Source: a virus. Taken from it: 64,000 bases of DNA. The position numbers were made by a program, and so were the translations under genes. Below, in pieces: positions 9,191-63,506 of the stretch. The DNA is taken from the IMG/VR virus record IMGVR_UViG_3300027985_000700, positions 44,397-108,396 of that record. One strand, given 5' to 3'. Each line of letters opens with the position of its first letter. Position 1 is the first letter of the stretch. The notes beneath the pieces are model-generated. The model was not told where the DNA came from, made no database searches, and saw only the letters and a list, made by a program, of their open reading frames with translations.

Positions 9191-9191
9191 A

Positions 9192-9484: not shown

Positions 9485-9559
9485 TGGTTGGAAAGGTGGG
9501 AATCGAACCCACATGCTTAGATTCACAATCTAATACGTTAACCATTACGTCACTAACCA
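9485..9559 (-). tRNA. tRNA-His(GUG)
   Basis: Stem TTAGA/TCTAA with loop TTGTGAA gives GUG. T arm GTGGG-TTCGATT-CCCAC, A73, CCA. The acceptor TGGTTAG/CTTTCCA has two central mismatches. A G precedes position 1 (the usual G-1 of tRNA-His), but 73 is A rather than C. Confidence 0.8.
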
Positions 9560-9735
9560 CATATTGGAGTCAGGTTTATTTCTGCACTTGGAAAACCCTT
9601 CACGAAAACCATCCAAAAATTTTTACATAAAGCTCAACGCCCTATATTGCGATTTAACCGAATCGACATCAGTACTTTATAATTTATTAAATCTTTGTAT
9701 CTTCAATGGAATAATGAGTTCCACTTGTTGTTAAT
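9560..9735. other. 176-base spacer between tRNA-His and tRNA-Gly
   Basis: Contains the hairpin CGATT-CGGTTA-AATCG (minus strand) but no complete tRNA and no gene with a ribosome site. It could be leader-processing sequence or another small RNA. Confidence 0.35.
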
Positions 9736-9811
9736 TGGAGAAAGTGATGGGATTCGAACCCACGTAATCTGCTTGGAAGGCAGATAGACTAGACCACTGT
9801 CCTACACTCTC
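9736..9811 (-). tRNA. tRNA-Gly(UCC)
   Basis: Acceptor GAGAGTG/CACTTTC, U73 (Gly identity), CCA. Stem TCTGC/GCAGA with loop CTTCCAA gives UCC. First tRNA of the array. Confidence 0.95.
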
Positions 9812-29500: not shown

Positions 29501-30406
29501 TTAAGCAGCAGTTGTAAAGTTAATTACTACTGTATCTGTAGTTTGTCCATAAATGTCTGCTAAACTATATACTAATGTATATTGTGCAGTACCAGTTAAG
29601 GCTTCACTTGGTGTAATAGTTACTATCTTATATGTATTGTCTAATGTTAATGATGTTGCTATTTTACCAACTCCATCTTTTAATAAGAATACATTGTTTG
29701 CAGTAACATAACCACTATTAATTGCATTTGTTGATGTTAATGTAATAGCAGCAGTTTTACTTACGTCAGTAGCAGCATCAGCAACACTTGAAGTAATAGC
29801 AAATGCTGGAGCAGCTTCAATTACATAAGTGAACCAAGTAGTTCCTTCTCCTGCGTATCCGTCTGATTCTTCATCAGCAGTTGCCATAATAATGTTTTCT
29901 TGGCGTCCGTTACCGAAGTTTTTAACATAATTTGTTGCAACGAATTGAGCTTTAATAGTTCCAGTTTGGAAGTTAACACTATCGTTTTTAGTTTCATTTG
30001 AACTTTCTGGTTCACTGAATCTACCTTTAAATAGTTTAACGTAACTGTAAGTACCATTGTCATATAGTTGTCTAAACATAATTGCAACATAAGGTGCATT
30101 GTATGTACTTGTTCTATATTTAGTAGCTCCTGATTCAGCATAACCTAATAACTCTGTTAATAAGTCGTCAGGTAAGCTATCCTTTTCAATTTCTACGTCT
30201 ACAGTTCCAACAACTGAGTATGAAATTGATGGTTTATTATCAGTGTATAATGTTTCAGTACTAACATTAGGAGTTATAGTAATTTTAATTAAGCCAGGAA
30301 CTGCATAAGGTGTTTCATATGAAATTGTACTTTCAGTATCTGTTATTAATTTTGCTATGTATAATTTATCTAATCCTATACGTACTTTACTTGTGTTTTT
30401 TGCCAT
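29501..30406 (-). CDS. Major tail protein with C-terminal Ig-like domain
   Basis: 301 residues. The tube domain is about 1-200 (KVRIGLDKLYIAKLITDTES; GTVDVEIEKDSLPDDLLTEL). The C-terminal Big-like domain is about 205-301 (FAITSSVADAATDVSKTAAI; YKIVTITPSEALTGTAQYTL). Tube proteins of siphoviruses often carry such decorations on the tail surface. Strong ribosome site AAAGGAGG. Confidence 0.9.
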   Translation of the reverse strand: MAKNTSKVRIGLDKLYIAKLITDTESTISYETPYAVPGLIKITITPNVSTETLYTDNKPSISYSVVGTVDVEIEKDSLPDDLLTELLGYAESGATKYRTSTYNAPYVAIMFRQLYDNGTYSYVKLFKGRFSEPESSNETKNDSVNFQTGTIKAQFVATNYVKNFGNGRQENIIMATADEESDGYAGEGTTWFTYVIEAAPAFAITSSVADAATDVSKTAAITLTSTNAINSGYVTANNVFLLKDGVGKIATSLTLDNTYKIVTITPSEALTGTAQYTLVYSLADIYGQTTDTVVINFTTAA

Positions 30407-30423
30407 AAATATCTTTCCTCCTT

Positions 30424-30834
30424 TTAATTATTTATATTTACAGGTCTAGTATAGTACAATGAAGTACTATATATTTTTTCTTGTTGTTTGTTTTTATCAG
30501 ATGAATTGTCCTTATTATATCCGAGATTTATCATAACTACATCTAATGCTTCAGTTATTTGAAGTAATGTAATAGTACTAGTCATACTACTAGGTAACCA
30601 TATATCCAGCTCGAAAGTAACTAATTCCTTAACAGGTTTGTTATCTCTAAAAAATATATTTTTTCTTCCTTCAATGTTGTAAGTTAGTCTAGGAAAGTAA
30701 CTAGTATCTTCGGTGTTATTATAAAGTTCAATGTCTGGAAAATATTCAGTTATTTTAGTTGTATCGTTACTAAAAAATGTCATTAAATCTGTATCAGTAG
30801 TTAATGCCTTATACAATTCTTGTTTTATATTCAT
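30424..30834 (-). CDS. Tail terminator/completion protein
   Basis: 136 residues, MNIKQELYKALTTDTDLMTF start, ELDIWLPSS centre, typical of the small tail terminator family that caps the tail tube. Its position between the HK97 gp10-like gene and the tail tube gene fits. It starts one base inside the previous stop. Confidence 0.75.
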   Translation of the reverse strand: MNIKQELYKALTTDTDLMTFFSNDTTKITEYFPDIELYNNTEDTSYFPRLTYNIEGRKNIFFRDNKPVKELVTFELDIWLPSSMTSTITLLQITEALDVVMINLGYNKDNSSDKNKQQEKIYSTSLYYTRPVNINN

Positions 30835-31298
30835 TAATATTGTATATTAGTTATATATTCAATAGCAACCTTACGTAATCTTTTAGAATTTTTATAAACA
30901 GCTTGATAAAAGTAATATGTAGGACGTTGTCCGTAGGTAAACCAAAAGTCTCCATATCGGTCCATATAAACCCAACCATTAGGTCTTCCAACAGAAATAG
31001 TATTATATATACCAGTACCATATTCAGGGTAACTAGCGTATTTAGAAGTGGAACCAACTTCTACTTTTAAAGCAGCCTTATTGGTTTTTCTATATATACT
31101 TTTGTATAAATCTCCACTATTAACTAAATCGTAGGATTTTATATTTGCTTTAACATCTTTCTTAATATTAGCCCCAAGTTCAACTAATGAATCATAAGTT
31201 GCATTAGAAATTTTATTAAGGGTTCTATTAAGTACATATTTCATTGCTGTACTTGAATCTTGCCCAGATTCAGTTCTAAAGGAAACATTTGCTGACAT
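30834..31298 (-). CDS. HK97 gp10-like head-tail joining protein
   Basis: 154 residues. Helical start, then DVKANIKSYDLVNSGDLYKS and VEVGSTSKYASYPEYGTGIY, a characteristic HK97 gp10-type pattern. It acts at the head-tail interface. The ATG overlaps the upstream stop. Confidence 0.85.
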   Translation of the reverse strand: MSANVSFRTESGQDSSTAMKYVLNRTLNKISNATYDSLVELGANIKKDVKANIKSYDLVNSGDLYKSIYRKTNKAALKVEVGSTSKYASYPEYGTGIYNTISVGRPNGWVYMDRYGDFWFTYGQRPTYYFYQAVYKNSKRLRKVAIEYITNIQY

Positions 31299-31636
31299 TA
31301 TTTAACCATTGGTTCTAATGTACATTCCATAGTTGTTTTAAACCATGAAGCAATTTGTTTTATAACGTAAAGTTTATTATTAATAATAACTCTATCTCCT
31401 TCTTTAATATGTTCGTTGTAGTCTAAATACAAAGTGTTTATTATCCCAGTTGAAACTGTTCCAAATTCATCGTTTGTAATATAACCACTTTCCACTTGGA
31501 AATCACAAGGTACAGTAGGGTAAACAACTATGTAATCACCTTTACTTAAAGTTCCCTCACTGTTTTGTGTAGGGGTACTTGCTTGTAATATATCACAAGT
31601 GTTAGTATAAACTAAAATACTATCTATACCGTACAT
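31298..31636 (-). CDS. Head closure protein
   Basis: 112 residues, beta-rich, DSILVYTNTCDILQASTPTQ start and EHIKEGDRVIINNKLYVIKQ core, as in Phage_H_T_join family proteins that plug the portal. Position after the connector fits. Confidence 0.75.
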   Translation of the reverse strand: MYGIDSILVYTNTCDILQASTPTQNSEGTLSKGDYIVVYPTVPCDFQVESGYITNDEFGTVSTGIINTLYLDYNEHIKEGDRVIINNKLYVIKQIASWFKTTMECTLEPMVK

Positions 31637-31638
31637 AT

Positions 31639-31902
31639 TTATTCCTCAGGTAATAGGCTTTTTAATTCTTCTACTGACATTGACTTATCATAATTTATAT
31701 GTAATTCATTTAATTTTGTCTGAATATCTTTTTTGGATGGTTTAACATCCTTTTTTATTTCATATTTAGTAATACAACCAAGTTGTAAATAAACTTTTGC
31801 AGTTTTTTCATCCAACATAATTGTACTTCCTTTTGTGTATACTTTTGTAGGTTCATCAATTTTTGTAATTGACATATCTTGTACAAATATATATTCTGTC
31901 AT
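31639..31902 (-). CDS. Hypothetical head protein with C-terminal HeH/SAP-like helix pair
   Basis: 87 residues. N-terminal beta part (TEYIFVQDMSITKIDEPTKV) and C-terminal KPSKKDIQTKLNELHINYDK, which resembles the small HeH/LEM-type helical domain. Often seen beside connector genes; role unknown. Confidence 0.65.
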   Translation of the reverse strand: MTEYIFVQDMSITKIDEPTKVYTKGSTIMLDEKTAKVYLQLGCITKYEIKKDVKPSKKDIQTKLNELHINYDKSMSVEELKSLLPEE

Positions 31903-31913
31903 TCTATCACTCC

Positions 31914-32543
31914 TTATATGTATAAATTTTTATAAGTTTCAATAACTAACTTATCGTCATTACTTAAGTTACTATCATTATATGTAACACTAATTTTTCC
32001 TTGACGTAATGCAGATATACCGTAATGTTTTCTATTTCTTACCATTTTAGCAATAGTTAAAGTTATAACTATGTCTTCTAAATCATAAGGTAACGTTCTA
32101 GGGTTTTCCTGTGTTGCGTCCTTAGGTAGTACATAACCATAAGTATATGTAACTTTATAACATAAACGTTTACCCACGCTATCCTCAGTTAATCCCGCTA
32201 TATAACCGCAGTTGTCCCACATGCTAGTACCATATATAAGACCTTTTTTAAATAATTTTAAGTCATCTAAGTAATCTGTAATTAAACTATCATTATGATA
32301 AATACTTTCTACACTTAGTATAGGTCTATTGGATGTAATTAAATACTGTCCACCGCCGTTTAAATATTCAGTAGTAGTACCTTTACATAAATTGTAACCT
32401 ATTTTTGATTGTATAAAATCACTGACTGCATTTATTTGTCGTATAATTTGGTTATCTTTACTTGTATCAGTATCAGCAATGCCTAGTTCATCTTTTATTG
32501 TTTCAACAGTTGTTAATGCATTGTTGGCTAATGTTTCATTCAT
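31914..32543 (-). CDS. Head-tail connector protein (gp6-like)
   Basis: 209 residues: ALTTVETIKDELGIADTDTS, NQIIRQINAVSDFIQSKIGY, then RPILSVESIYHND. This is the pattern of the phage_connect adaptor that binds below the portal. C-terminal helices end ETYKNLYI. Confidence 0.82.
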   Translation of the reverse strand: MNETLANNALTTVETIKDELGIADTDTSKDNQIIRQINAVSDFIQSKIGYNLCKGTTTEYLNGGGQYLITSNRPILSVESIYHNDSLITDYLDDLKLFKKGLIYGTSMWDNCGYIAGLTEDSVGKRLCYKVTYTYGYVLPKDATQENPRTLPYDLEDIVITLTIAKMVRNRKHYGISALRQGKISVTYNDSNLSNDDKLVIETYKNLYI

Positions 32544-32581
32544 TGCTTCACTCTCCTTTATACATAAAGCTAGTGGAGGAA

Positions 32582-32761
32582 TTATTTTCCACTTAATTTA
32601 GTTTTTATTTGTTCTATAATAAGAAGTTTAGAACTAACGTTATTTAAAATAATTCCTTTATCCTTAGCATATTTTATAAGTTGTTTTTTAGTTAATTTTG
32701 AAAGTTCTAAAGTGTTAATAATTCTATTACTTTCAATACCCTGTATAGTTCTTGTTATCAT
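32582..32761 (-). CDS. Small HeH/SAP-like protein, 59 aa
   Basis: MITRTIQGIESNRIINTLEL then LTKKQLIKYAKDKGIIL and SKLLIIEQIKTKL: two short helices as in HeH/SAP motifs. The ribosome site is not clear. It fills the gap between the connector and the 109-residue head gene. Similar in type to the tail of the 31639-31902 protein. Confidence 0.5.
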   Translation of the reverse strand: MITRTIQGIESNRIINTLELSKLTKKQLIKYAKDKGIILNNVSSKLLIIEQIKTKLSGK

Positions 32762-32776
32762 ATAGGTTAAAATTTA

Positions 32777-33106
32777 CTAAACTTTATCGTTGTAAATTTT
32801 GTCCCCTAATCCAAGAGCTACTAATGTTGCATCAGTTGCAGTAAACTTAACATATTTACCTAAACTTCTAACGTTTAAGTCGTATGTTAATTCTACAGTT
32901 CCTGCAGTTGCATTTTCGTATGAAATTGTGTCGTAAGTTTTGTAAGTTCCACCAACAGTGTCACAGTATGAAATTACAACTGAACCTGTTTTTGTAGTAG
33001 CAACAGTAATAAGTAACATAGCTGATTCGTAGTTACTAACATCTTCTGCTACACCGCTTTCAATTACTTTTAAAGCGTGAGTTAATTTTGAATAATTCAT
33101 TTTCAT
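32777..33106 (-). CDS. Probable head decoration or minor capsid protein, 109 aa
   Basis: Begins MKMNYSKLTHALKVIESGVA, then a beta sandwich-like part (SAMLLITVATTKTGSVVISY; VRSLGKYVKFTATD). Directly downstream of the major capsid gene with a strong ribosome site, as decoration proteins usually are. Assignment from position and fold impression only. Confidence 0.55.
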   Translation of the reverse strand: MKMNYSKLTHALKVIESGVAEDVSNYESAMLLITVATTKTGSVVISYCDTVGGTYKTYDTISYENATAGTVELTYDLNVRSLGKYVKFTATDATLVALGLGDKIYNDKV

Positions 33107-33156
33107 TTTTATTCCTCCTTATTTGTTATTATATGTATGAATTTTATAATAGTAAT

Positions 33157-33184
33157 ATAGGAGTGGGTAACCCCACTCTCTATA
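33157..33184 (-). terminator. Hairpin after the major capsid gene
   Basis: Stem ATAG-GAGTGGG/CCCACTC-CTAT with a 4-base loop, then A/T-rich sequence. It probably attenuates read-through so that capsid protein is made in excess, or stabilises the capsid mRNA 3' end. Confidence 0.65.
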
Positions 33185-33203
33185 CTTTTAATTAAATTAT
33201 TGA

Positions 33204-34391
33204 TTAGGCAACTGTGTAGAAATTAAATACTACGAATGCTTCACCACGAGCTAATTTAATGTCGTGTTTCATGATACCTCTAAATACAGTAAAGTCTGAT
33301 GTAAAGGCATTAATAACTTTTCCGTCAGTGTCTGTAAATGTAGTTGATTTGTCTAAGTCAAATTCAAAGTTGTATTCTTCTCCAACCCATACTTCATTCC
33401 ATTTTCCTAAGAAAACGTCAGTCTTAACATTGTTAGTAGTATCACTTGGTATTTGGTTACTTACTAAACATTTACGTCCTAGTAATGTACCCATAGTTGT
33501 TAATTCAGTATTAACATGACCTTCGTCTGCAACAACTTCGTTAACTAATGCTAACCAAGCGTCCCAGTTAATTGCAAATCCAATTGAAGCGTCGTTTACA
33601 TTGATATTTTTCTTACCAAGTTTTGCTAACATTTCATATAATGCAGCTCTTGTAATAACAGCAGTTTTAGCAGTGTATTGAATACCGTCAGTATTTCTAA
33701 TACCTAATGGTTGGTCTTCTCCACCAGTACCATATAATAATGCGTAGTCCATAGTTTGAACCATAGATTCCATCATTGTATCTCTTAAAATAACGTCTGC
33801 TTGGTATGTGTTAGTTCTTAGTAAGTCATTTGATATAGCAGTTAAACTCATTAATTTTTTAGAACTTAATTTAATACGTCCAATTTTAATGTCTGAGAAG
33901 TCTGCAGCTCCACCTTCTGGAATATATTGAGCAGTTAATTTACCGATTAGTTTGTTAACTGATAAGTTTCCTCTTGGCATTGGAACAATTTTAGCTCCCA
34001 TAGCTTTAACTACTGTTAAGTTGTAAAGTAATTCAATGAAATCAGCACTAAATTCTTCTGGAATTAAGAATGATCCTTGGTTACCTTCCATTAAAGCTTT
34101 TTCAGTAGCTTCGATTTCTTTAACAAATGATGTGTCTTTTGCGTAAGAATCTTTTAAATACTTAACAGCAAATGTTGATGGGTTAGCTCCTTTTGCAGCG
34201 GCTTCTTGAGCAAGTATTTGTGCTTTAACGCAACGTGCGAATGCGATACCTTTCATATCACGATCTTTGTTTTGTTCAATTGATTTAGTAGTTTCTAATA
34301 GCATGTCAGCATATTTTGATTCTAATGATTTCATGTTATCAGTAACTGTTGATTTAATTTCGTTTAGTAATTCTTCTTTATTTATGTCCAT
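33204..34391 (-). CDS. Major capsid protein (HK97 fold)
   Basis: 395 residues. The helical delta-like N-terminus is followed by the mature domain: LMEGNQGSFLIPEEFSADFI, VPMPRGNLSVNKLIG, TAISNDLLRTN, ALLYGTGGEDQPLGIRNTDG and a C-terminal FRGIMKHDIKLARGEAFVVF. These are classic phi-type HK97 capsid signatures. It follows the prohead protease. Confidence 0.95.
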   Translation of the reverse strand: MDINKEELLNEIKSTVTDNMKSLESKYADMLLETTKSIEQNKDRDMKGIAFARCVKAQILAQEAAAKGANPSTFAVKYLKDSYAKDTSFVKEIEATEKALMEGNQGSFLIPEEFSADFIELLYNLTVVKAMGAKIVPMPRGNLSVNKLIGKLTAQYIPEGGAADFSDIKIGRIKLSSKKLMSLTAISNDLLRTNTYQADVILRDTMMESMVQTMDYALLYGTGGEDQPLGIRNTDGIQYTAKTAVITRAALYEMLAKLGKKNINVNDASIGFAINWDAWLALVNEVVADEGHVNTELTTMGTLLGRKCLVSNQIPSDTTNNVKTDVFLGKWNEVWVGEEYNFEFDLDKSTTFTDTDGKVINAFTSDFTVFRGIMKHDIKLARGEAFVVFNFYTVA

Positions 34392-34413
34392 AATTTTTCC
34401 TCCTTATAAATTA

Positions 34414-34776
34414 TTACTTTAAAAAGTTTTGTATTGTTTCTACGATAGCACTTTTAACACTTTCAATGTCTAAAGTTTTGTCTTCCGTAGGTTCTTCTAC
34501 TACTGGTTCTACAGTAGGTTCTTCAGTAGGTTGTACTACTGGTTCCTCATTTGAATCTTCTTGCACATTTTCAGATTCTATAGGTTGTGGGTTTACCACA
34601 TCTGTAACTTGCTCTGGGTCTTTATCTTTATCTTCTTGTTCAGAAGATTCAATTGATTCTAATGATTTTGAAGCTAATGTTTTAATTTCTACTAAAGCAT
34701 CTTTTAATTCTTTAACTTTTGCCATTGCTTCATCTGTATCTATGTTAACTTTTATGTTAATGTCTTGATTTTTCAT
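34414..34776 (-). CDS. Internal-start scaffold protein within the protease gene
   Basis: Inside and in frame with the protease gene, a perfect AAGGAGGA (34791-34784) precedes ATG at 34776 by 7 bases. It would give a separate 120-residue protein MKNQDINIKVNIDTDEAMAK..., helical then Glu/Pro/Val-rich (EEPVVQPTEEPTVEPVVEEP) and ending VETIQNFLK. This mirrors phage lambda C/Nu3, where a scaffold is translated from within the protease gene. Inferred from the ribosome site. Confidence 0.7.
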   Translation of the reverse strand: MKNQDINIKVNIDTDEAMAKVKELKDALVEIKTLASKSLESIESSEQEDKDKDPEQVTDVVNPQPIESENVQEDSNEEPVVQPTEEPTVEPVVEEPTEDKTLDIESVKSAIVETIQNFLK

Positions 34777-35331
34777 TGTATTGTCCTCCTTATCTTGTTC
34801 TTCGCTTTCTTTTAACATTTTTTTGTAAGCACTTAAATCGTTATCACTAACAATACCCTTACTATATGCTAATTGTAAAGCTTCTGAATTTGCAGGAACT
34901 GGTACGGCTGATAATTCAAGTAATTCTTGTCTGTCACTTATAAAAGTATCCTCGTCAAAGTGCCATTCTTTAATCATAAAACCAACACTTGTAGCATTTA
35001 AAAATCCACCTTTGTATAAGTTATATACAGTTTTTGCAAATTCATATTCTTCAGTTGCAAATTGAATGTCAAATACTAAGGCTTTTTTAGTTGGGTCAAT
35101 ACCTACGTTAGTAGCTTTACCTATTGGTAATGAATGACTATCGTGTGCCCATAAAAATACAGGGTTTTTTAAATAATTTTCAAGTTCCCATCCATCAACT
35201 TTAACTATATCTCCTTGACGATCTTTTGTTTCTGTTGAACCAATAAAACGTAATGTTCTTTCGTCTAATTCTTTTATTTTAAAGTTGTATTCTGATGATT
35301 TGGTCTTTAAATTGTTTTCCTTGTTTTTCAT
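34414..35331 (-). CDS. Prohead protease fused to scaffold domain
   Basis: 305 residues. The protease is about 17-150: RTLRFIGSTETKDRQGDIVK, VFLWAHDSHSLPIGKA (catalytic His), FLNATSVGFMIKEW (catalytic Ser) and LELSAVPVPANSEA. The C-terminal 120 residues are an acidic scaffold. It cleaves scaffold and the capsid delta domain during head maturation. Ribosome site AAGGAGGTG; it overlaps the portal gene end by 53 bases. Confidence 0.92.
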   Translation of the reverse strand: MKNKENNLKTKSSEYNFKIKELDERTLRFIGSTETKDRQGDIVKVDGWELENYLKNPVFLWAHDSHSLPIGKATNVGIDPTKKALVFDIQFATEEYEFAKTVYNLYKGGFLNATSVGFMIKEWHFDEDTFISDRQELLELSAVPVPANSEALQLAYSKGIVSDNDLSAYKKMLKESEEQDKEDNTMKNQDINIKVNIDTDEAMAKVKELKDALVEIKTLASKSLESIESSEQEDKDKDPEQVTDVVNPQPIESENVQEDSNEEPVVQPTEEPTVEPVVEEPTEDKTLDIESVKSAIVETIQNFLK

Positions 35332-36715
35332 CTATACCTTCACCTCCTTGGTTGTTTTTATTACTGTCGTCGTTTGGATCTTTTGGATCTGTGTCATTAG
35401 AATCGTCAGTATTTTGTTGATCATCACTTTGATCGTCTATATTGTCTGTTGCAGGATCCTCAGTATCCTCTGCTCCAGTAATAAACTGTTTTGTTTTTAT
35501 ATTATAAAATTGTTTTTTAGTAGGTAATATTAATGCATCACCCATTTCACAGTCAGCAGCTAAAGGTTGTCTTCCTGTTTCAATTCTATATTCGTTTATG
35601 GTAATTCCTCCACGGTCTAATCCTTCGTTTGCACGCTTAAGTTCAAATTCTTTATCTTCTATTGTTTTACGTTCAAATCTAAAAACTAAATTTTCTGAAT
35701 TTTTGTATAATGATAATAATTGGTGAGTAATTGCTTCTTCAAATTCTACAAATTGTGGTTCAAGTACCTCATTTATATAAATGTCACGAGCAGCAACAAC
35801 TGTTGCTTTATTACTATTTTCAACATTACCCATTATTTCAGGTGGTATACCAAAATGTTGCATTGCTAAGTCTCTATAAAATTTTCTTGATTCAATAAAG
35901 TCCATTTCTTTGTTAGTACTATTTAATACGTGTACTTTTGCTTCCCAGTTTAAGAAAGCAGCTTTATTACTATTTGTAAGTCCCCCAAATTTTTGAACCC
36001 ATCTTTTTTCAAGGTTTTCAATATTATCGTCACTTGTTCCATCTGGAGCAGTAACTATAATGTTTGGTGTTGCATCGTTAAAAAAGAATCTTTTAGCAAA
36101 TTTTGCCATGTATTCATCTGTTTCAAGTTCATCACCAATTTGTTCCACCCTACCAATACCACGTCCAATAGGATTTAGTGGGTCTGGATTTTTACGGTAA
36201 AACATATCTTCTTCATTTACTTCAATACGGTTAGAACTACTTTTTAATTCTACTATGTAAGTGTTTCTTTCCTTTTTAGGTAATTCTTTTATCCAATCAG
36301 GTGGTAAAAACCATAAAAATGTAGGTTCACCGCTTTTATTTTTTTCTATTAAAGCAAAACTTTCTCCACGTACTAAAAAATGTACTTGAGATAAGTATAA
36401 ATCAGCACTACCTGTTGTATGATAAACATTATTTGGTTGTTCATACAACATTTTAATTAATGGGTGGTTAGGTACTAATGTTAATTGTCCATTTCTAGAT
36501 TTTCTATATACGTTACCACGTTTTGTACTTATATCACGGGACATCTTAGTAACTGGAGCCATACGTGGGCTTGTGTTATAAGTCTTTAACCAGTCTTCAC
36601 CGTTTCTTTTTGGTGGTTCCCCACGTAAAGGTTGCATAATATCTCCTAAATATTTTTTAGTAAACCTTTTTTCTACTGTTGGTACACCAAAGAGTTTTAA
36701 AAATGTATTATTCAT
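35279..36715 (-). CDS. Portal protein (HK97 family)
   Basis: 478 residues: NHPLIKMLYEQPNNVYHTTG, QVHFLVRGESFALIEKNKSG, MFYRKNPDPLNPIGRGIGR, QHFGIPPEIMGNVENSNKA. The C-terminal 60 residues are a low-complexity Asp/Asn tail. It forms the dodecameric DNA gate in the capsid. Ribosome site AAGGAGG. Confidence 0.95.
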   Translation of the reverse strand: MNNTFLKLFGVPTVEKRFTKKYLGDIMQPLRGEPPKRNGEDWLKTYNTSPRMAPVTKMSRDISTKRGNVYRKSRNGQLTLVPNHPLIKMLYEQPNNVYHTTGSADLYLSQVHFLVRGESFALIEKNKSGEPTFLWFLPPDWIKELPKKERNTYIVELKSSSNRIEVNEEDMFYRKNPDPLNPIGRGIGRVEQIGDELETDEYMAKFAKRFFFNDATPNIIVTAPDGTSDDNIENLEKRWVQKFGGLTNSNKAAFLNWEAKVHVLNSTNKEMDFIESRKFYRDLAMQHFGIPPEIMGNVENSNKATVVAARDIYINEVLEPQFVEFEEAITHQLLSLYKNSENLVFRFERKTIEDKEFELKRANEGLDRGGITINEYRIETGRQPLAADCEMGDALILPTKKQFYNIKTKQFITGAEDTEDPATDNIDDQSDDQQNTDDSNDTDPKDPNDDSNKNNQGGEGIDEKQGKQFKDQIIRIQL

Positions 36716-36899
36716 TTCTTTCCTCCTTATTTAGAAGATTCCTTTCACTTTTATCATAAGTAACTAATATGGTTTTATAAGCATCAATGTATGCTTTAAC
36801 CTTAGCTTCTTCTATTTTATTTAATTGTTCTGTAAGTAATTTTTGTTCCCATCTTTGTATAGATGTTAATAAGTTTAACCTAAAATTATCATTTTTCAT
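36708..36899 (-). CDS. Hypothetical helical protein, 63 aa
   Basis: MKNDNFRLNLLTSIQRWEQK..., one long charged helix, ending RNLLNKEERNE. No clear ribosome site. It lies between terminase and portal genes and overlaps the portal start by 8 bases. Role unknown. Confidence 0.55.
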   Translation of the reverse strand: MKNDNFRLNLLTSIQRWEQKLLTEQLNKIEEAKVKAYIDAYKTILVTYDKSERNLLNKEERNE

Positions 36900-36920
36900 A
36901 TTATTTTAAATACCAATAAA

Positions 36921-38501
36921 CTAAAATATTTTTAGTTCTTTTGATATAGCTCCTTTCGTAACATATATTTGTCTACATCCTTGACTGAATGAGTCGCAGA
37001 AGTCATCGTGTTGTACGTAAGGAAATCTAGTTAAATCATTTAAAGCATCTTCTACCCAATAGTAACGTGTTATCATATCGCTTGTGTCAATACTAGGTAT
37101 GTAAACATTTCCAGCTTCCACATAAGGTGAAATACTATTCATTCTACTATATTTATCCTCTTCAGGAGTAATTGGTAAAATACCCGGAATTGTACTTTGT
37201 AATGTTTCTATAATGGCAGGTCCATTTGCTTTATCTTCCACTAATATTACTATTGGAATATTAGCTCCATATTCAATAAATATTTTCTGCCATTTCTCTC
37301 TCATATCGTCAACTGCGTCTAATGTATCTAAGAATCCAACTTGTTTTTTAAAGTAATCTACTAAATACGTTGTAACACCGTTTGTTAATAACACGGCACA
37401 AGCAACGTAGTCAGCAGTTTGTTTACCTTTAAAACTCATGTCCCAACTTTGGTATAATTTCCATTCTTTTGGAGCAAAACCAGTATTATAAAAAGGTAAT
37501 ACTTTCCATTTTTTAAACCAAAAACGTTGTAACAAACTTCCCCCCTCAGGAGCCGGATCTTGTAGGTACTGTGACTCGTAAGTTCTTGTACCTTGTTCTT
37601 TTTTAGTTTGTTCTATCCAACTTTTTGGCATTCTTTCTTTCCATAAAGATTCGTTGGCTCTAAATAAATATTGTTTCTTAGTAATTGGTCCAGTATACAC
37701 AATATCATGGTCAGTTGTTACTGGTAAAACTATAAACTTGTAAAAGTCTTTATAGTTCTCTATAATAAATCCACTTGCGTCATTGTAATGTAATCTTTGT
37801 TGTATATTTACAATAACACCTGTAGAATAATTATTTAAACGTGATGGTAATGTCTGTCTAATAAAGTCAATAACTGATTTTCTATCTGCTTCTGACTCAG
37901 CCATTCTTGGGTTTTGAATATCATCTAGGAATATCATATCCCCACCTTTTCCGGTTAATGTACCACCGATAGAGGTACTAAACATACTACCTTGTGCAGT
38001 GTTTTCAAAAAAGGTTTTGGTATTTTGTTCTTCCTTTAGTTTAACTATATGACCCCAGTTTGCTTGATACCAGTCACTTTCAATTATTTCTCTTCTTTTT
38101 TTGTTTAATTCCATTGATAGGTCACTACTGTACGAAACTGTAATAAATTTTTTACTTGGACAATGTATCCAAACCCAACAAGGAAATATAACATTAATAA
38201 ACAAACTTTTCATTGTACGTGGAGGAATGTTAATATTAACACGGTAAACAAGTTCCGTTTCACAAATTGATTCAACTTCTTCTTTACTATATCCTATTGC
38301 TTCTCCTAAATCACGTAAAACTAATAGCACTAATTCTTCTTCTAAATAGTGTAAGTGCCAGTTGTCACTAAATTCAGTTCCTGGCTCTATAACTTTCCAG
38401 GCCTGTCTTGTAAATTCTAACAAATTCTTTTCTGCTAAAATCTTTTCTATTACTTCAATTCCACCATTATCTTTTAAATACTGAACTAAATCTTTATCCA
38501 T
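36921..38501 (-). CDS. terL: Terminase large subunit
   Basis: 526 residues. ATPase: a Walker A variant RVNINIPPRTMKSLFINV, Walker B GGDMIFLDDIQNP, coupling motif GVIVNIQQRLHYND. Nuclease: QSWDMSFKGKQTADYVAC, VILVEDKANG and HDDFCDSFSQG acidic residues. It cuts and packages phage DNA into the head. The ATG overlaps the small subunit stop (TAATG). Confidence 0.95.
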   Translation of the reverse strand: MDKDLVQYLKDNGGIEVIEKILAEKNLLEFTRQAWKVIEPGTEFSDNWHLHYLEEELVLLVLRDLGEAIGYSKEEVESICETELVYRVNINIPPRTMKSLFINVIFPCWVWIHCPSKKFITVSYSSDLSMELNKKRREIIESDWYQANWGHIVKLKEEQNTKTFFENTAQGSMFSTSIGGTLTGKGGDMIFLDDIQNPRMAESEADRKSVIDFIRQTLPSRLNNYSTGVIVNIQQRLHYNDASGFIIENYKDFYKFIVLPVTTDHDIVYTGPITKKQYLFRANESLWKERMPKSWIEQTKKEQGTRTYESQYLQDPAPEGGSLLQRFWFKKWKVLPFYNTGFAPKEWKLYQSWDMSFKGKQTADYVACAVLLTNGVTTYLVDYFKKQVGFLDTLDAVDDMREKWQKIFIEYGANIPIVILVEDKANGPAIIETLQSTIPGILPITPEEDKYSRMNSISPYVEAGNVYIPSIDTSDMITRYYWVEDALNDLTRFPYVQHDDFCDSFSQGCRQIYVTKGAISKELKIF

Positions 38502-39100
38502 TAACTACCCATTTCATCTTTAGCTTCATTTTTTAAAGTTATAAGTAGTGTTTTTAAATCGTCAGTAGATAATTGTTGTAATTGTTGTACATTTGTGTTT
38601 ATGGTAGTTGTTTTTGCTACCTCAGTTTTATTTTTCCATTGTTCTGAACGAACATTAGTAAGTGCAAATTTTAACATTGCTCCATTTCCACGTGCATGTT
38701 TTCTAAGTTCTACAATTTCACCTGTTTTCTTATTAACATCTTCTTCTGTATAATCATAACCTTTGGCTTCTTGATACATACTTGTTTCAAGACTGTCCGC
38801 TAATAGTTCATTTCCAAAATCATATGCTTCTTTTAATTCAGGTATTGTGTTTTTGTAGTGTAAAAATATACTAGAACTAATATCTAATATTTTTGCTATC
38901 TGTGCAACATTCATACCATTTTCACGATATTTAGTAATGTCTTGTAGATAAGGTCTTACCTTGCGTTCATAAGTTATAGTGTAAGGATTAGCATTCTTAG
39001 GATCTAACGAAGGTGCTAAGTCTAAGTTTACATTAATAAGTTCCCCACTATCAGGATCTATAACTTCAGTTGTAATAAAATCTTTAGGATTTCTTTTCAT
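38501..39100 (-). CDS. terS: Terminase small subunit
   Basis: 199 residues. Central helix-turn-helix: ITKYRENGMNVAQIAKILDI then SSIFLHYKNTIPELKEAYDF, followed by oligomerisation helices and a Lys-rich tail. It recognises the packaging site on phage DNA. First gene of the late operon, about 60 bases after its promoter; the 39.2-39.4 kb repeats upstream could be its target. Confidence 0.82.
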   Translation of the reverse strand: MKRNPKDFITTEVIDPDSGELINVNLDLAPSLDPKNANPYTITYERKVRPYLQDITKYRENGMNVAQIAKILDISSSIFLHYKNTIPELKEAYDFGNELLADSLETSMYQEAKGYDYTEEDVNKKTGEIVELRKHARGNGAMLKFALTNVRSEQWKNKTEVAKTTTINTNVQQLQQLSTDDLKTLLITLKNEAKDEMGS

Positions 39101-39157
39101 TTACTCACCCTCCTAGATAGGTAAGCGTAATATGGGTTATATTTTATTTATACATAC

Positions 39158-39186
39158 ATTATAACACATATTGAATAAAAAGTCAA
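39158..39186 (-). promoter_or_regulatory. Promoter of the late (structural) operon
   Basis: Minus strand TTGACT (39186-39181), 17 bases, TATAAT (39163-39158) with TGT upstream. Spacer almost identical to the lysis promoter at 17629-17657. Confidence 0.85.
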
Positions 39187-39548
39187 GTGTTTTTGACAAA
39201 TTTCTCAAACTTTTTTATTTACATTTGTTTACAGTTGCTCCATTTGGGGTTAGGCGTTCCATTTGGGGTTATGCCCCCTTTTGTTACCCCAAAAAGAGGT
39301 TTTTGACTTTATAACATAGGCGCTAACAAGTTTTATTAAAAATTAACCTCTTCCATTTGGGGTTAGGCGTTCCATTTGGGGTTATGCCGCCTGAACCCTT
39401 TATTTATAAAGGTAAATCCCTAAGATGTAAATATAATGTAAACACTAAAAACTCACTATATATATATATTATAATAAGTATATTAGTATAATAAGTATAT
39501 TACTAGTTACTAGGGTTACTAGGGAAAATTTCGTTTTTAAAATTTCAC
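39187..39548. promoter_or_regulatory. Divergent control region between late and accessory genes
   Basis: No gene. It holds the 37-base direct repeat described separately, a short palindromic stretch CCCTTTATTTATAAAGG near 39396, and alternating A/T tracts with tandem AATAAGTATATTA near 39472-39504. It is a candidate origin, packaging or operator region. Confidence 0.5.
39239..39388. repeat. 37-base direct repeat, two copies
   Basis: Copies at 39239-39275 and 39352-39388, 113 bases apart, identical over 37 bases. Each is itself two tandem units of CCATTTGGGGTTAKGC. It is the most G-rich sequence in an otherwise A/T-rich region. Confidence 0.9.
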
Positions 39549-39577
39549 TTTACTTTTTTAGTATATCGTTGTATAAT
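39549..39577 (+). promoter_or_regulatory. Promoter of the NUMOD4 gene
   Basis: TTTACT, 17 bases, TATAAT (39572-39577). Reads into the gene at 39597. Confidence 0.75.
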
Positions 39578-39596
39578 ATATTTACGAGGTGGTAGT

Positions 39597-39962
39597 ATGG
39601 AAATAATTGGGTACGAAGGTTTATATGAAATAAATGAAAATGGTGAAGTTTTTAGGTTACCACGATATTATAATACTAAAAATGGTTTACGTTATTATAA
39701 CAAAAAAAGGGTACAACCTACAACAAAATTTGGAGGACAACAAGTAGTTTTAACAAAAGATGGTAAAAGAACTTGGTATCAATTAAAGTATTTAGTTGCT
39801 TTACACTATATACCCAACCCTAATAATTATAACCACACTATGTATATAAAAAGTACTGGGGATAATATCAATATACCTATAAATATTAAATGGGTAAGTG
39901 AAAGTGAATATTTAGAAAATTTCAAAAATAATCGTTACAAAAGTATTGACATTTCTAGATAG
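39597..39962 (+). CDS. NUMOD4-domain protein, degenerate HNH homing-endonuclease relative
   Basis: 121 residues. The start EIIGYEGLYEINENGEVFRL matches the NUMOD4 motif found at the N-terminus of phage HNH endonucleases. The expected HNH core (NHIDGNKSNN-type) is replaced by NHTMYIKSTGDNINIPINIK, keeping NH and the IKWVSESE end. The catalytic set looks incomplete, so cleavage activity is doubtful. Location next to terminase genes is typical for phage HNH proteins. Confidence 0.75.
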   Translation: MEIIGYEGLYEINENGEVFRLPRYYNTKNGLRYYNKKRVQPTTKFGGQQVVLTKDGKRTWYQLKYLVALHYIPNPNNYNHTMYIKSTGDNINIPINIKWVSESEYLENFKNNRYKSIDISR

Positions 39963-39974
39963 ATATGTTATAAT
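39946..39974 (+). promoter_or_regulatory. Promoter of the 40.06 kb operon
   Basis: TTGACA (39946-39951), 17 bases, TATAAT (39969-39974) with TGT before it. The -35 lies inside the end of the NUMOD4 gene. Confidence 0.88.
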
Positions 39975-40055
39975 TTATTTAACAAACAAAGATTATATTA
40001 TTTTAACCCCCAAAATAATTAATAATGTTTGTTAAAACAGAAAGAGGTGCTGATA

Positions 40056-40412
40056 ATGTATTTTAAAGATAAAATGTATGTTAGATTGAATTTAAAAGAA
40101 GACCACCCCCTATACAAAGAATTCAATAACAGAATTGCAAAATTACTAAGTAATGGGGAAGGTAAGTTACTACTGGATATTTGTCCAACACAATATGTAC
40201 TTGAGGGAGAACAAGAATGTGATTGGTTAGTAAGTGTTACGGACCTTGCCGACAGAATAAGAGTTACACTTGGGGTTATTTTAGATGATGTAGGAAACGA
40301 ATTAAATGAAATAGACGCAAGAGTAGTTGATAAAATGTCAAACTTGGAATTATATAAATATCTTTGTCAGCAACTTACTGACTGTATTGAAATAGTAAAA
40401 AATAGGGATTAA
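40056..40412 (+). CDS. Hypothetical protein, 118 aa
   Basis: ATG at 40056, preceded by AAAGAGGTG; an upstream alternative start lacks a ribosome site. MYFKDKMYVRLNLKEDHPLY..., with LLDICPTQYVLEGEQECDWL and a helical C-terminus. First gene of the operon behind a consensus promoter. No family recognised. Confidence 0.75.
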   Translation: MYFKDKMYVRLNLKEDHPLYKEFNNRIAKLLSNGEGKLLLDICPTQYVLEGEQECDWLVSVTDLADRIRVTLGVILDDVGNELNEIDARVVDKMSNLELYKYLCQQLTDCIEIVKNRD

Positions 40413-40413
40413 T

Positions 40414-40590
40414 ATGGAAAATAATTCTTTTTTATGTAAGAATTGTGGGTCTGAAACTTTTAATCAGGACACCTACCCATTTTGTAGTGTAGAGTGTATG
40501 ATTGAGTACATAGAAGGGGAACAAGATTTTAATTATGAAAAATACGAAGATGAACAAGACATCCTTGAACACGAGGGCTTGGAAAAATAA
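40414..40590 (+). CDS. Zinc-ribbon microprotein, 58 aa
   Basis: MENNSFLCKNCGSETFNQDT then FCSVEC: two Cys pairs (CKNC and CSVEC) as in a zinc ribbon, followed by an acidic tail. It starts two bases after the previous stop. The end overlaps the HAD gene in another frame. Confidence 0.65.
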   Translation: MENNSFLCKNCGSETFNQDTYPFCSVECMIEYIEGEQDFNYEKYEDEQDILEHEGLEK

Positions 40591-41002
40591 ATATATTTTT
40601 ATTGATATGGACGGAGTCATTGCAGATTTTGAATTACCTAATGGTCAACAAGATGTTACTGACTGGAATATAGAAGGTGTATGCCTTAATAAACGTCCTA
40701 TAAAAACAATAATAAAAAAACTTAAAAAACTAAGTAAACATAATGAACTTTATATTTTTTCCTGTGCCCCAAGTAAAGTTTGGGAAGATGAAAAAATATT
40801 GTGGTGTAAAAAATACATTCCTTTTGTAAAAGGTTATTTCTTCTTTAATAAAATGGAAGAAAAAGTAGATTTTTTTAAACAAAAAGATTGTAGTACTTAT
40901 ATAAGTAAAAAAGCAATTGTTATAGAAGACACCACTGAAACAATATTAAACCTACGTAAAATAGGTGTACAAAGTTATCATGTAATTAGTTTAATTATAT
41001 AA
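40535..41002 (+). CDS. HAD-superfamily 5'-nucleotidase-like phosphatase
   Basis: About 155 residues. Motif I KYIFIDMDGVIADFELP (D-x-D nucleophile), motif II Ser in YIFSCAPSK, conserved Lys in KKYIPFVKGYFF, motif III AIVIEDTTET. This fits 5'(3')-deoxyribonucleotidase-like enzymes that dephosphorylate nucleotides. Start uncertain: ATG 40535 or 40550, both overlapping the zinc-ribbon gene and lacking a strong ribosome site. Confidence 0.8.
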   Translation: MKNTKMNKTSLNTRAWKNKYIFIDMDGVIADFELPNGQQDVTDWNIEGVCLNKRPIKTIIKKLKKLSKHNELYIFSCAPSKVWEDEKILWCKKYIPFVKGYFFFNKMEEKVDFFKQKDCSTYISKKAIVIEDTTETILNLRKIGVQSYHVISLII

Positions 41003-49267: not shown

Positions 49268-49296
49268 TTGTATTATACCATTAATGGTGGTATACT
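49268..49296 (+). promoter_or_regulatory. Promoter of the 49389 gene with operator palindrome
   Basis: TTGTAT, 17 bases, TATACT (49291-49296). Operator ACCATTAATGGT at 49277-49288 in the spacer. Confidence 0.8.
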
Positions 49297-49365: not shown

Positions 49366-49381
49366 AAAGTAAAGGTAGGTA
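49366..49381 (+). promoter_or_regulatory. Unusual ribosome site, target of the 62.1 kb RNA
   Basis: AAAGTAAAGGTAGGTA, 8 bases before the ATG. It reads as AAAGGAGG with an inserted T. All 16 bases are complementary to 62142-62157 of the small RNA. Confidence 0.65.
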
Positions 49382-49388
49382 AAAAAAA

Positions 49389-49823
49389 ATGGTAAAAACA
49401 GTTAAAGGTACTAAAATTAGTACAAAAAAGGTTGGTAATAAACCAACAGTTAATAAGGTGGTTAGTAACCCAGTAGTTACATTAACACCTGTTACAACAG
49501 TAACAACAGTTACACCAAATGTAACAGTAACACCACAAACGGTAGGGGTAAAGGTAGTAAATGTTAAACCACAAATTGTATATGTAAAAAGGTTATTACA
49601 TAATTACTTAAAACAAAACGGGTTAAACCATACAAACAGTACAACAACAAAACCACAAGTAATAAGTAATATAACACCACAACAAGTACAACAAGTACAA
49701 ACACAACTTAATACATACTTACAAGGTATTAATACAATTTATAACTATACTACTACACCACAAACATTATACATACAAAACCACTTTATAACACACAGTA
49801 ATAAATATTTAGGGTTAAAATAA
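49389..49823 (+). CDS. Paralogous family member A, 144 aa, Thr/Val-rich
   Basis: N-terminal 55 residues are low-complexity Thr/Val/Pro (VVTLTPVTTVTTVTPNVTV). Then QIVYVKRLLHNYLKQNGLNH and, near the end, LYIQNHFITHSNKYLGLK. The last segment matches the proteins at 50483 and 62308 (YI-x-NH-x-x-x-H-x-x-KY). Codon choice is unusually narrow (ACA, GTA). Own promoter, structured leader and special ribosome site. Function unknown. Confidence 0.75.
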   Translation: MVKTVKGTKISTKKVGNKPTVNKVVSNPVVTLTPVTTVTTVTPNVTVTPQTVGVKVVNVKPQIVYVKRLLHNYLKQNGLNHTNSTTTKPQVISNITPQQVQQVQTQLNTYLQGINTIYNYTTTPQTLYIQNHFITHSNKYLGLK

Positions 49824-49907
49824 CCCTACTTGTTACATAGGGTATAACCAAAAAAGGTTGTACCCCTTGTAATGGGTAATACCATTATAAAAAGGTAGGT
49901 GTAAAAC

Positions 49908-50057: not shown

Positions 50058-50074
50058 TAAAGGGTAGGTAAACA

Positions 50075-50146
50075 ATGTTAAAACTAAGTAAAATAATTAA
50101 GTGGGGATTTACTCCACCAAAAAGAAAAAGAAGAAAAGGAAGATGA
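50075..50146 (+). CDS. Very basic microprotein, 23 aa
   Basis: MLKLSKIIKWGFTPPKRKRR KGR, ending in TGA. Ribosome site GGGTAGGTA. A terminator follows at once. Very short, so coding is plausible but unproven. Confidence 0.45.
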   Translation: MLKLSKIIKWGFTPPKRKRRKGR

Positions 50147-50162
50147 AAGTCTTCATTTTTTT
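50143..50162 (+). terminator. Terminator after the 49.4-50.1 kb genes
   Basis: ATGAA-AGTC-TTCAT followed by seven T. The stem begins at the stop codon of the 23-residue gene. Short stem, moderate strength. Confidence 0.6.
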
Positions 50163-50390
50163 CATCTTTTGTATCAAAAAGGAAGTCCTTCGTCCCAAAT
50201 GACAAGTGACGTTTTCAATATCGACGTTGACAGGTCTGGGTTTCCAGTTTCAGGTGTGCGGTTTCAGGTTTCCAGTTTCAGGCTTGATAACAATATTCAA
50301 AATGGATAAAATTCACTTTTTATTTGCAGTTTCAGTTGTAAGTTCAAATCAGAAAATATTATTAAATTGTTGAAAAGTTACAAAAAAGTG
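50163..50390. repeat. Gene-free stretch with GTTTCAGG-type repeats
   Basis: TTTCCAGTTTCAGG occurs twice (about 50239-50252 and 50268-50281), with GGTTTCAGG between and CAGTTTCAG again near 50328. No gene. Related AGTTTCAAG motifs recur at 51.7 and 54.0 kb. Confidence 0.6.
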
Positions 50391-50419
50391 TTTACTTTCC
50401 GATTATTCTGTAGTATAAT
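50391..50419 (+). promoter_or_regulatory. Promoter of family member B
   Basis: TTTACT, 17 bases, TATAAT (50414-50419). Lacks the ACCA/TGGT operator. Confidence 0.75.
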
Positions 50420-50482
50420 ATAAGTAGTTAAACAAAAAAGGGTTTAACAAATCTTTGAAAATATGGAAAGGTAGGAAAGAAT

Positions 50483-51588: not shown

Positions 51589-52071
51589 GTATAAAATGTG
51601 AGTACTTTACTCCTATGAAAGTTATATAATTGACACATTTTGACCTTTTTACCCCCTAAAAACAGTCAAAAACGAGTGTATTTTGCAGTTTCAAGTACGA
51701 TTTTGTCACCTAAAATGTCAAAAAAGAAGTGAAATGAGTCTCAAATTAGCAGTTTCAAGTCCGAAATGATGGCTATTTATTAAGATCTGATGTGCAATTT
51801 CACCTCTGAAATGAGGTTTCAAATCAGACATGAAGACGCCGAGCCCTTGATTTATAAGGGATTTCTTTTCTGAAGAGACGAACGGTAAGGGAAAGTTTTG
51901 TTTGTTTGAAAGGGTTCACCCATAAGTGGTAGTCGTATTGTATGTTACTATATAGTTAACTTGTTATGTTTGTCTTATTTATATACTTATTTGATAATTT
52001 CTTCTTATTTTCTCTTTCTATTTCCCCGCGCCCCGTAGTTGTGACAAGTTGTATAATTTCACACATTATTA
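51589..52071. repeat. Gene-free stretch with AGTTTCAAG repeats
   Basis: About 480 bases, no credible gene. GCAGTTTCAAGT occurs at 51685-51696 and 51750-51761; GCAATTTCACC and GGTTTCAAATC follow. CCCTTGATTTATAAGGG at 51844-51860 is a small hairpin. More G/C than its surroundings. Function unknown; may be a replication or packaging element. Confidence 0.5.
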
Positions 52072-53364: not shown

Positions 53365-53393
53365 TTGTAAATTACCACCATTCTTGGTATACT
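53365..53393 (+). promoter_or_regulatory. Promoter with operator palindrome
   Basis: TTGTAA, 17 bases, TATACT (53388-53393). Operator ACCATTCTTGGT at 53377-53388. Drives the small membrane genes at 53.4-53.7 kb. Confidence 0.82.
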
Positions 53394-53428
53394 ATTAGTA
53401 GTTAATTAAAAAAGGTAGGTGTTAAGGT

Positions 53429-61083: not shown

Positions 61084-61752
61084 ATGGAACTAATTAAAGA
61101 TTTAAGACAAAAAAGAAAAGCACAAGGATATACTCAAGGGCAGGTAGGTAAACTACTTGGAATACATGGTAGTCACTATTCTAGAATAGAAACTGGACAA
61201 CTTATTCCAGATGAAAGTTTAACTATTAGAATAAATAATTTATTTATGCATAAAGATACAACTAAAGATGTTGAAAGTGAGTGCATTAAACAAACTATTA
61301 ATGGTAAGAAAATTACATTACCACCTATTTATAGAACAACAAGAGAAAAAATTAATTTAAGTTTAAAAGAAGTTAGTAAATTAACTGGAATACCAGAGTC
61401 AACACTAGGTAAGTACGAAACAGGTGCACAAAAGTGTACAGTTGAACGTAAAGAAAAGTTGGATGAATTATATAAACAATATATTCCAACTATTACTAAA
61501 CGTGAACAAGAACCAAAAGAAGTAAAAGAAGTTATAAAACGTGCTGTTCCTAAAGAATCAAAAGAATTATATATAGATAATAAGGTTGTAGAAGAAAAAG
61601 CTAGTGTGGATGAAGAAAAACAAACTCTTATATTGGAAAATAAGATGCTTACTAAAGAACTTGAATTAACTAAACAACAATTATATTTCACACAAGGTTT
61701 ATTAAATAAAATGTTTACTAACGTAAGTGAAATAACAACTAAGAAGAGATAA
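61084..61752 (+). CDS. Two-HTH (Cro/CI-XRE type) regulator with coiled-coil tail
   Basis: 222 residues. HTH 1, about 4-52: RQKRKAQGYTQGQVGKLLGI-HGSHYSRIETGQ. HTH 2, about 80-128: RTTREKINLSLKEVSKLTGI-PESTLGKYETGA. Residues about 170-215 form a coiled coil (LILENKMLTKELELTKQQLY). Two DNA-binding domains plus a dimer helix suit binding to palindromic sites; it is the best candidate in this window for the ACCA-N4-TGGT operators, though unproven. Confidence 0.82.
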   Translation: MELIKDLRQKRKAQGYTQGQVGKLLGIHGSHYSRIETGQLIPDESLTIRINNLFMHKDTTKDVESECIKQTINGKKITLPPIYRTTREKINLSLKEVSKLTGIPESTLGKYETGAQKCTVERKEKLDELYKQYIPTITKREQEPKEVKEVIKRAVPKESKELYIDNKVVEEKASVDEEKQTLILENKMLTKELELTKQQLYFTQGLLNKMFTNVSEITTKKR

Positions 61753-61754: not shown

Positions 61755-62048
61755 ATGACAAAATATTATAAGGATACCATTGAATTAAATAGTAGTAAGA
61801 TACTACCACTTAATCAAGTTCTTTCGCTAGTAGGTTTAGAACCTAAGTATAATGACGAAGTTAAAATTTCAGCCAAACACATAAATTATTTTCTTGACAA
61901 CATGAACAAAAAGTTCAATACAAACTATAAAATGGACGTGCTTAATAATAGACAACACGAATGGGTATGGAATAATATAAAAGTAGAAATTGTAAGTATA
62001 ACGAATAGTTATACCCAATGTACAGTTTTTCTTAAAATAGTGTTGTAA
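61755..62048 (+). CDS. Hypothetical protein, 97 aa
   Basis: MTKYYKDTIELNSSKILPLN, INYFLDNMNKKFNTNYKMDV, HEWVWNNIKVEIVS. Two bases after the regulator stop, so co-expressed. Its stop codon forms part of the next promoter -35. Confidence 0.65.
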   Translation: MTKYYKDTIELNSSKILPLNQVLSLVGLEPKYNDEVKISAKHINYFLDNMNKKFNTNYKMDVLNNRQHEWVWNNIKVEIVSITNSYTQCTVFLKIVL

Positions 62049-62071
62049 AATACGTTATTTTGTGGTATACT
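62043..62071 (+). promoter_or_regulatory. Promoter of the small RNA
   Basis: TTGTAA (62043-62048, overlapping a stop codon), 17 bases, TATACT (62066-62071) with TGG before it. Confidence 0.8.
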
Positions 62072-62078: not shown

Positions 62079-62209
62079 TACTTGTTTAATGGGTACAAAA
62101 TGGTTGTAGTATAGACCAATACACATACTGAGTGAATTTAATACCTACCTTTACTTTAATAGATAAACTCAGTACTAACCCTATATATAATGTATAGGGT
62201 TTATTTTTT
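62079..62209 (+). ncRNA. Regulatory small RNA with anti-ribosome-site loop
   Basis: About 131 bases between a promoter and a strong terminator, no reading frame over four codons with a ribosome site. Hairpins: TGTAC/GTACA (62077-62097), TGGT/ACCA (62101-62118), TACTGAGT/ACTCAGTA (62126-62133 with 62167-62174) and the terminator. The 33-base loop of the third hairpin contains TACCTACCTTTACTTT (62142-62157), fully complementary to the ribosome site of the gene at 49389 and partly to sites at 49891, 50063, 50467 and 53411. Likely trans-acting translational control. Confidence 0.72.
62177..62209 (+). terminator. Terminator of the small RNA
   Basis: AACCCTATA/TATAGGGTT nine-base-pair stem, 7-base loop, then TATTTTTT. 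Confidence 0.9.
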
Positions 62210-62307: not shown

Positions 62308-62604
62308 ATGCAAAATAAAATAAATAGAGTTAACAGTGAAGTGGTAACTGTTAGAATGGGGTCAAATGTTAAAAATTGTGTACTTACAATTAAGAACAGA
62401 ATTTATAATTTAGGACTAGGTTACCAAAGACCAAGTTGTGCTAATGTTATTACAGTAGACAACAAAACAAGAAAATTAATTGAAAACACTCAAAAACAAT
62501 ATTTAGATGAAATGAAAGATCAATATAATTTATCTGACGCAGATGTAACTTATATTAAAAATCATCTAAATGTTCACAACAGTAAATACTTAAGAGTGAA
62601 ATAA
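62308..62604 (+). CDS. Paralogous family member C, 98 aa
   Basis: AAGGAGG upstream (normal ribosome site, unlike members A and B). N-terminus NRVNSEVVTVRMGSNVKNCV; C-terminus DQYNLSDADVTYIKNHLNVH NSKYLRVK matches the YI-x-NH-x-x-x-H-x-x-KY ending of the proteins at 49389 and 50483. Own promoter and terminator. Function unknown. Confidence 0.72.
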   Translation: MQNKINRVNSEVVTVRMGSNVKNCVLTIKNRIYNLGLGYQRPSCANVITVDNKTRKLIENTQKQYLDEMKDQYNLSDADVTYIKNHLNVHNSKYLRVK

Positions 62605-63185: not shown

Positions 63186-63506
63186 ATGAAATTAATTACA
63201 AAGGAAGTAGAAAATAAGTTCTTAAAATACCCAATAGGAAGTCAAGACGGTAAAGGTAAGGATGCATTAGTAATTGCAAAATTCTTTAATCCTTGTGGTG
63301 CAGGTACTTGGTTAATAACTGAGGCTGAAAAAGATGGGGATGATTGGTGTATGTTTGGTTACTGTAATATAACTGATTGGGAATGGGGATACGTTATGTT
63401 AAGTGAACTTATTAGTGTTAAGCTACCATTTGGATTAACAGTAGAACGTGATATGCACGTACCCGATGGTGCAACTGTTGGGAGTATGGTTAAAGATTAT
63501 GAATAA
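63186..63506 (+). CDS. DUF2958-family protein
   Basis: 106 residues. MKLITKEVENKFLKYPIGSQ, VIAKFFNPCGAGTWLITEAE, WEWGYVMLSELISVKLPFGL-TVERDMH: the characteristic DUF2958 pattern (KFFNP...TW..TE...GY..LSEL...G..VERD) of phage and plasmid proteins, function unknown. GGGAGG upstream. Confidence 0.88.
   Translation: MKLITKEVENKFLKYPIGSQDGKGKDALVIAKFFNPCGAGTWLITEAEKDGDDWCMFGYCNITDWEWGYVMLSELISVKLPFGLTVERDMHVPDGATVGSMVKDYE

Follow-up and report, generated by a model that had tools for sequence, protein, structure and literature searches.

The viral record analysed here is 108,396 bp long and carries a 144-bp repeat at both ends, so that it is probably complete; the window, the whole stretch of 64,000 nucleotides that was studied, corresponds to bases 44397-108396 of this record, and positions given below are those of the window unless the genome is named. 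Gene calls and start choices were made mechanically. A cluster of 25 tRNA genes is found at 3719-9811 on the minus strand. At the locus under study, a gene encoding a protein with two helix-turn-helix domains (61084-61752), which is possibly a phage regulator, and an open reading frame at 61755-62048 lie upstream of a predicted small non-coding RNA of about 131 nt (62079-62209, plus strand). The neighbouring gene on the same strand (62308-62604) has its own promoter and a normal AAGGAGG ribosome site, and encodes a distant third member of the protein family to which the main predicted target of the small RNA belongs. A DUF2958 protein is encoded at 63186-63506 (Pfam E 1.5e-18).

The small RNA is delimited by a promoter and an intrinsic terminator, both on the plus strand. 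As read from the sequence, the promoter (62043-62071) consists of TTGTAA, a 17-bp spacer and TATACT, where the -35 box (62043-62048) overlaps the stop codon of the open reading frame 61755-62048 and the -10 box (62066-62071) is extended (TGG), giving TGGTATACT. The terminator (62177-62209) is formed by an 11-bp stem at 62177-62201 followed by the T-run TATTTTTT. An earlier sequence-only reading had described this region as a gene-free unit between promoter and terminator, and this description holds, as both elements are present and no open reading frame of at least 50 aa lies between them, with only frames of 4-6 codons seen by eye. When the whole RNA is folded with RNAfold, it forms a 5' hairpin, a small hairpin, an 8-bp hairpin with the arms TACTGAGT (62126-62133) and ACTCAGTA (62167-62174), and the terminator. 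The 8-bp hairpin (62126-62174, plus strand) is the putative target-binding element, and its 33-nt loop, which had been proposed to expose a 16-base sequence, does so in the RNAfold structure as well, where five more weak A-U pairs leave a 19-nt apical loop (62141-62159) with the entire 16-mer inside it. The fold of the whole RNA is unexceptional (z = -1.65), and in Rfam the small RNA matches no family at the gathering score, the sole weak match being Hrs12 (26.1 bits against a cut-off of 70).

The exposed 16-mer, or seed (TACCTACCTTTACTTT, 62142-62157, plus strand), is the exact complement of AAAGTAAAGGTAGGTA at 49366-49381 on the same strand, which covers the variant Shine-Dalgarno sequence (AAAGG-T-AGGT) of gene 49389, located 12.8 kb from the seed. 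All 16 of the 16 bases match, in agreement with the earlier claim, and the pair is unique, since the 16-mer and its complement occur at these two sites only in the genome, even when one mismatch is allowed. The variant ribosome site can be described as AAAGGAGGT with an inserted T. The loop carries the A that pairs with this inserted T of AGGTAGG, and the match also extends upstream of the Shine-Dalgarno core (AAAGTA); these two features suit the loop to the 49389 leader and not to ribosome sites generally. The target site is unstructured, with an opening cost of 0.8 kcal/mol compared with 0.4 kcal/mol in the small RNA. After correction for accessibility, the energy of the loop with 49389 is -22.4 to -22.9 kcal/mol, in a model that takes no account of proteins, and this is the best of 189 start regions, 8 kcal/mol ahead of the next (-14.4 kcal/mol). 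The best ordinary ribosome site reaches -12.8 kcal/mol. A role for the small RNA as a general anti-Shine-Dalgarno sponge was considered and rejected, because the loop favours the variant site over the best ordinary one by ~9.7 kcal/mol.

The main predicted target, gene 49389 (49389-49823, plus strand), encodes an orphan protein of 144 aa that is a paralogue of 50483. Asp, Glu, Ala, Cys and Trp are all missing from this protein; its paralogue contains 17 Asp/Glu/Ala residues. AlphaFold models of the family (three sequences) had a mean pLDDT of 51, which is too poor for use. The promoter of gene 49389 (49268-49296, plus strand) consists of TTGTAT, 17 bp and TGGTATACT, with the -10 box starting at 49291, and this extended -10 class is common to the promoters of the small RNA, gene 49389 and gene 53429 (53388). 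A minus-strand gene that would use AAAGTAAAGGTAGGTA as its own ribosome site was also considered and discarded, as there is no properly spaced start codon and only a 23-codon reading frame about 17 nt off. A promoter flavour TTGTA[AT]-17-TGGTATACT, with no GA in the -35 box, is seen at 49268-49296, 53365-53393, 62043-62071 and around 4763-4791 of the genome record. This flavour often occurs with GGTAGG leaders, and the ordinary TTGACA flavour occurs with GGAGG leaders alongside, in numbers that are too small for a firm association.

Gene 49389 lies within an island of peculiar composition. Between 48957 and 50105 (1.15 kb), there are 3 GA, 0 TC and 1 GC against roughly 76, 40 and 22 expected from base composition, or 4 in place of ~138 overall; the edges are sharp, and the longest run free of GA, TC and GC measures 692 bp inside the island, compared with 84 bp outside the island and its edges. 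The island contains an AT-rich non-coding stretch, gene 49389 and two short open reading frames, and its near lack of GA, TC and GC explains why the protein has no Asp, Glu or Ala. Beside or near it, at 50145-50420 and 51590-51900, there is non-coding DNA in which TC and GA abound, in words resembling GTTTCAGG. Outside the window, at 30172-40841 of the genome record, are genes of 7-deazaguanine DNA modification (FolE, QueD, QueE, QueC-like and DpdA-like), where the DpdA-like protein matches phrog_887 (E 1.6e-27) and shares 38.5% identity with a Streptococcus phage MS1 protein. Judging from these genes, the phage probably modifies guanine in its DNA. It has been reported that phage CAjan modifies GA and GGC (PMC10002423). 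By analogy, the simplest link suggested is that the island holds almost no modifiable G; if the specificity of this phage, which we infer, is like that of CAjan (GA, GGC), then the island would be unmodified DNA. Islands free of GA, TC and GC were found in none of the other DpdA phages inspected, which comprised fetched parts of MS1, Dp-1, Iggy and VogelGryff, a 10-kb contig and two distant IMG/VR phages.

We propose that 62079-62209 encodes a trans-acting antisense RNA of the phage, which is predicted to pair with the ribosome site of gene 49389 and to block its translation, and we assign this reading a probability of about 0.6. An encoded trans-acting RNA had been suggested from the sequence-only reading, and it remains the best account of a non-coding unit with its own promoter and terminator and with the best loop-to-start interaction in the sampled non-coding DNA. 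In the proposed mechanism, the promoter of the unit would drive synthesis of the small RNA and the terminator would keep the RNA stable, and its unpaired pyrimidine-rich loop would form 16 base pairs with the 49389 mRNA at the exposed ribosome site. The resulting duplex would span the Shine-Dalgarno sequence and the bases immediately upstream, and with the Shine-Dalgarno sequence hidden in this way the 30S subunit would be excluded and translation turned off, possibly followed by RNase III cleavage of the duplex. Computation shows the layout of the unit, its lack of an open reading frame, the exposed loop, the accessible target, and a match that is unique and more than accidental; from this we infer transcription of the unit, pairing in the cell, repression over any other effect, and the timing. 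Because the small RNA and its target share a promoter class, repressor and target would be co-expressed, and the proposal needs an argument about timing.

A different account holds that the loop matches an AT-rich ribosome site by accident, and that the unit, whether a real non-coding transcript or an intergenic hairpin, serves some other purpose, such as that of a transcription buffer. The match was picked after the whole sequence had been read, and the genome contains 12 inverted pairs of at least 16 bases with at least 4 G/C, several of which set one ribosome site against another on opposite strands, so that a bare inverted 16-base match is not rare in this AT-rich genome. What is unusual is the location, as the match falls squarely within the apical loop of a unit bounded by promoter and terminator and is not antisense to a gene start. 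The match also stands apart from chance in shuffling controls, where a perfect match of at least 16 nt to any of ~190 start regions was obtained for 0.11% of dinucleotide-shuffled loops and 0.2% of shuffled whole RNAs, and where none of 600 dinucleotide-shuffled loops equalled the accessibility-corrected energy of the real one. When 1514 of the 2602 non-coding 21-mers (58%) were sampled, only terminal-repeat copies equalled the small-RNA loop on corrected energy, so that it outscores every other sampled non-coding loop once the terminal repeat is set aside, and most of the other high-scoring 21-mers are antisense to the ribosome site of their own gene, which this loop is not. The energy is less distinctive without accessibility, when 16 of 200 random genomic 33-mers reach the best duplex energy, in a set that includes the antisense strands of ribosome sites. 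Since inverted 16-base matches are common and the unit was picked after the sequence was read, we put the effective chance rate closer to 1% than to 0.1%; the ~1% is our own estimate and takes into account that a handful of non-coding units may exist. On balance, we regard an accidental match as rather unlikely. The unit could instead be a leader or attenuator of gene 62308 from which no free RNA is released, and it does lie directly upstream of that gene on the same strand; however, a strong terminator stands between them, gene 62308 has its own promoter just past this terminator (TTGTAA near 62242, 17 bp, TATACT), and an alternative antiterminator hairpin was not seen, all of which make this account highly improbable.

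A broader reading would have the small RNA govern a regulon of all genes with AGGTAGG sites, in line with the earlier claim that it controls a group of phage genes. Ribosome sites of the GGTAGG type are found at eight starts (49389, 49908, 50075, 50483, 51160 on the minus strand, 53429, and genome positions ~4836 and ~4946), six of which have their leaders within 49.3-53.5 kb. Ranks 1-4 of the 189 start regions all carry GGTAGG, and the TTGTAW-TGGTATACT promoter class is common to several GGTAGG genes. The shorter matches that had been pointed out do exist (49892-49900, 50062-50069, 50469-50475 and 53412-53420), and three of the leaders contain secondary candidate sites on the plus strand, namely those of gene 53429, which has a TTG start (53411-53420; -14.4 kcal/mol, rank 2 of 189), of the short open reading frame 50075 (GGGTAGGT, 50062-50069; -14.1 kcal/mol, rank 3) and of the short open reading frame 49908 (49892-49900; -13.6 kcal/mol, rank 4 of 189). 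Ranks 2-4, however, are at most 2 kcal/mol from ordinary sites, the AGGTAGG leader of the paralogue 50483 (50469-50475, plus strand) comes only at rank 13 with -9.9 kcal/mol, and the leaders near genome positions 4836 and 4946 are at ranks 43 and 46. In addition, AGGAGG is excluded by the island sequence itself, as it needs GA, which accounts for the variant site in three of the eight leaders without any regulation, the rest being outside the island. Within the group, only 49389 stands clear as a predicted target; effects on 53429, 50075 and 49908, which are barely above ordinary sites, are possible and weakly suggested, and the pairing with 50483 is too weak for a credible target. We consider a regulon of all these genes distinctly unlikely. 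The neighbouring gene 62308, which had been expected to escape control, does have a normal ribosome site, but its adjacency is no evidence, because nearly all other genes would escape likewise. Still more speculative, and in our estimation very unlikely, is a translational switch for an expression class defined by a GA-less -35 box (TTGTAW, not TTGACA) and ribosome site (GGTAGG, not GGAGG) and centred on the GA/GC-poor island, which would be free of modification if DpdA is CAjan-like; a loop fitted to the GA-free site would then separate this class from normally written genes.

None of the collections searched yielded a homologue of either the small RNA or the target family. Searches for related phages by terminase, capsid, portal, DNA polymerase, NrdD, DpdA and the target family returned only a 10-kb contig (68% DpdA) and distant phages, none of them with the target family. 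The exact 16-mer occurs in 38 stretches of IMG/VR, none with a convincing flanking stem and terminator, and a 16-nt hairpin match in a distant DpdA phage was rejected, as it is part of an open reading frame and fails to fold.

The exact 16-base pair of loop and ribosome site is a directly testable prediction and, if true, would place an orphan gene of a large, otherwise unknown phage under control at the RNA level. The island may be a stranger discovery than the small RNA, and a target inside a region where either strand is nearly devoid of GA and GC may offer a way to learn why a phage with modified DNA would keep part of its genome unmodified.

To our knowledge, few antisense RNAs are both encoded in trans and directed at a defined phage target. 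One system for comparison is the phage-encoded c4 antisense RNA of P1 and P7, which blocks translation of the phage ant mRNA by means of loops complementary to the sequence surrounding its ribosome site (review PMC12197685). The small RNA described here is like c4 in that its loop matches a ribosome site on a phage mRNA as a complement (16/16 at 49366-49381). While c4 arises by processing of the transcript that also carries its target and helps to maintain lysogeny, the small RNA has its own promoter and terminator, lies 12.8 kb from its target, and is directed at the gene of an orphan protein. Another example is sar of phage P22, a small RNA that pairs with the mRNA for the antirepressor, which is translated less as a result (PMC12197685). 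Like sar, the small RNA is a small phage RNA predicted to reduce translation of a phage mRNA by pairing. Whereas sar is encoded beside its target, the small RNA is encoded in trans to 49389. A third group is formed by the C-rich-loop sRNAs of low-GC bacteria, including Listeria LhrC, S. aureus RNAIII, RsaE and SprD, and B. subtilis FsrA, which have a pyrimidine-rich single-stranded loop and a terminator hairpin and pair with Shine-Dalgarno sequences by means of a UCCC motif (PMC4132741). The small RNA is likewise predicted to pair with its target at the Shine-Dalgarno region; in contrast to the LhrC/RsaE/FsrA type, its loop (GAAUUUAAUACCUACCUUUACUUUAAUAGAUAA; ACCUACCUUUACUUU) contains no UCCC, and it is phage-encoded, fitted to a variant AGGTAGG site and has one standout target. 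By analogy, the small RNA may be viewed as acting like c4, sar or the C-rich loops of LhrC, rather than as a demonstrated relative or member of the c4, sar or LhrC families.
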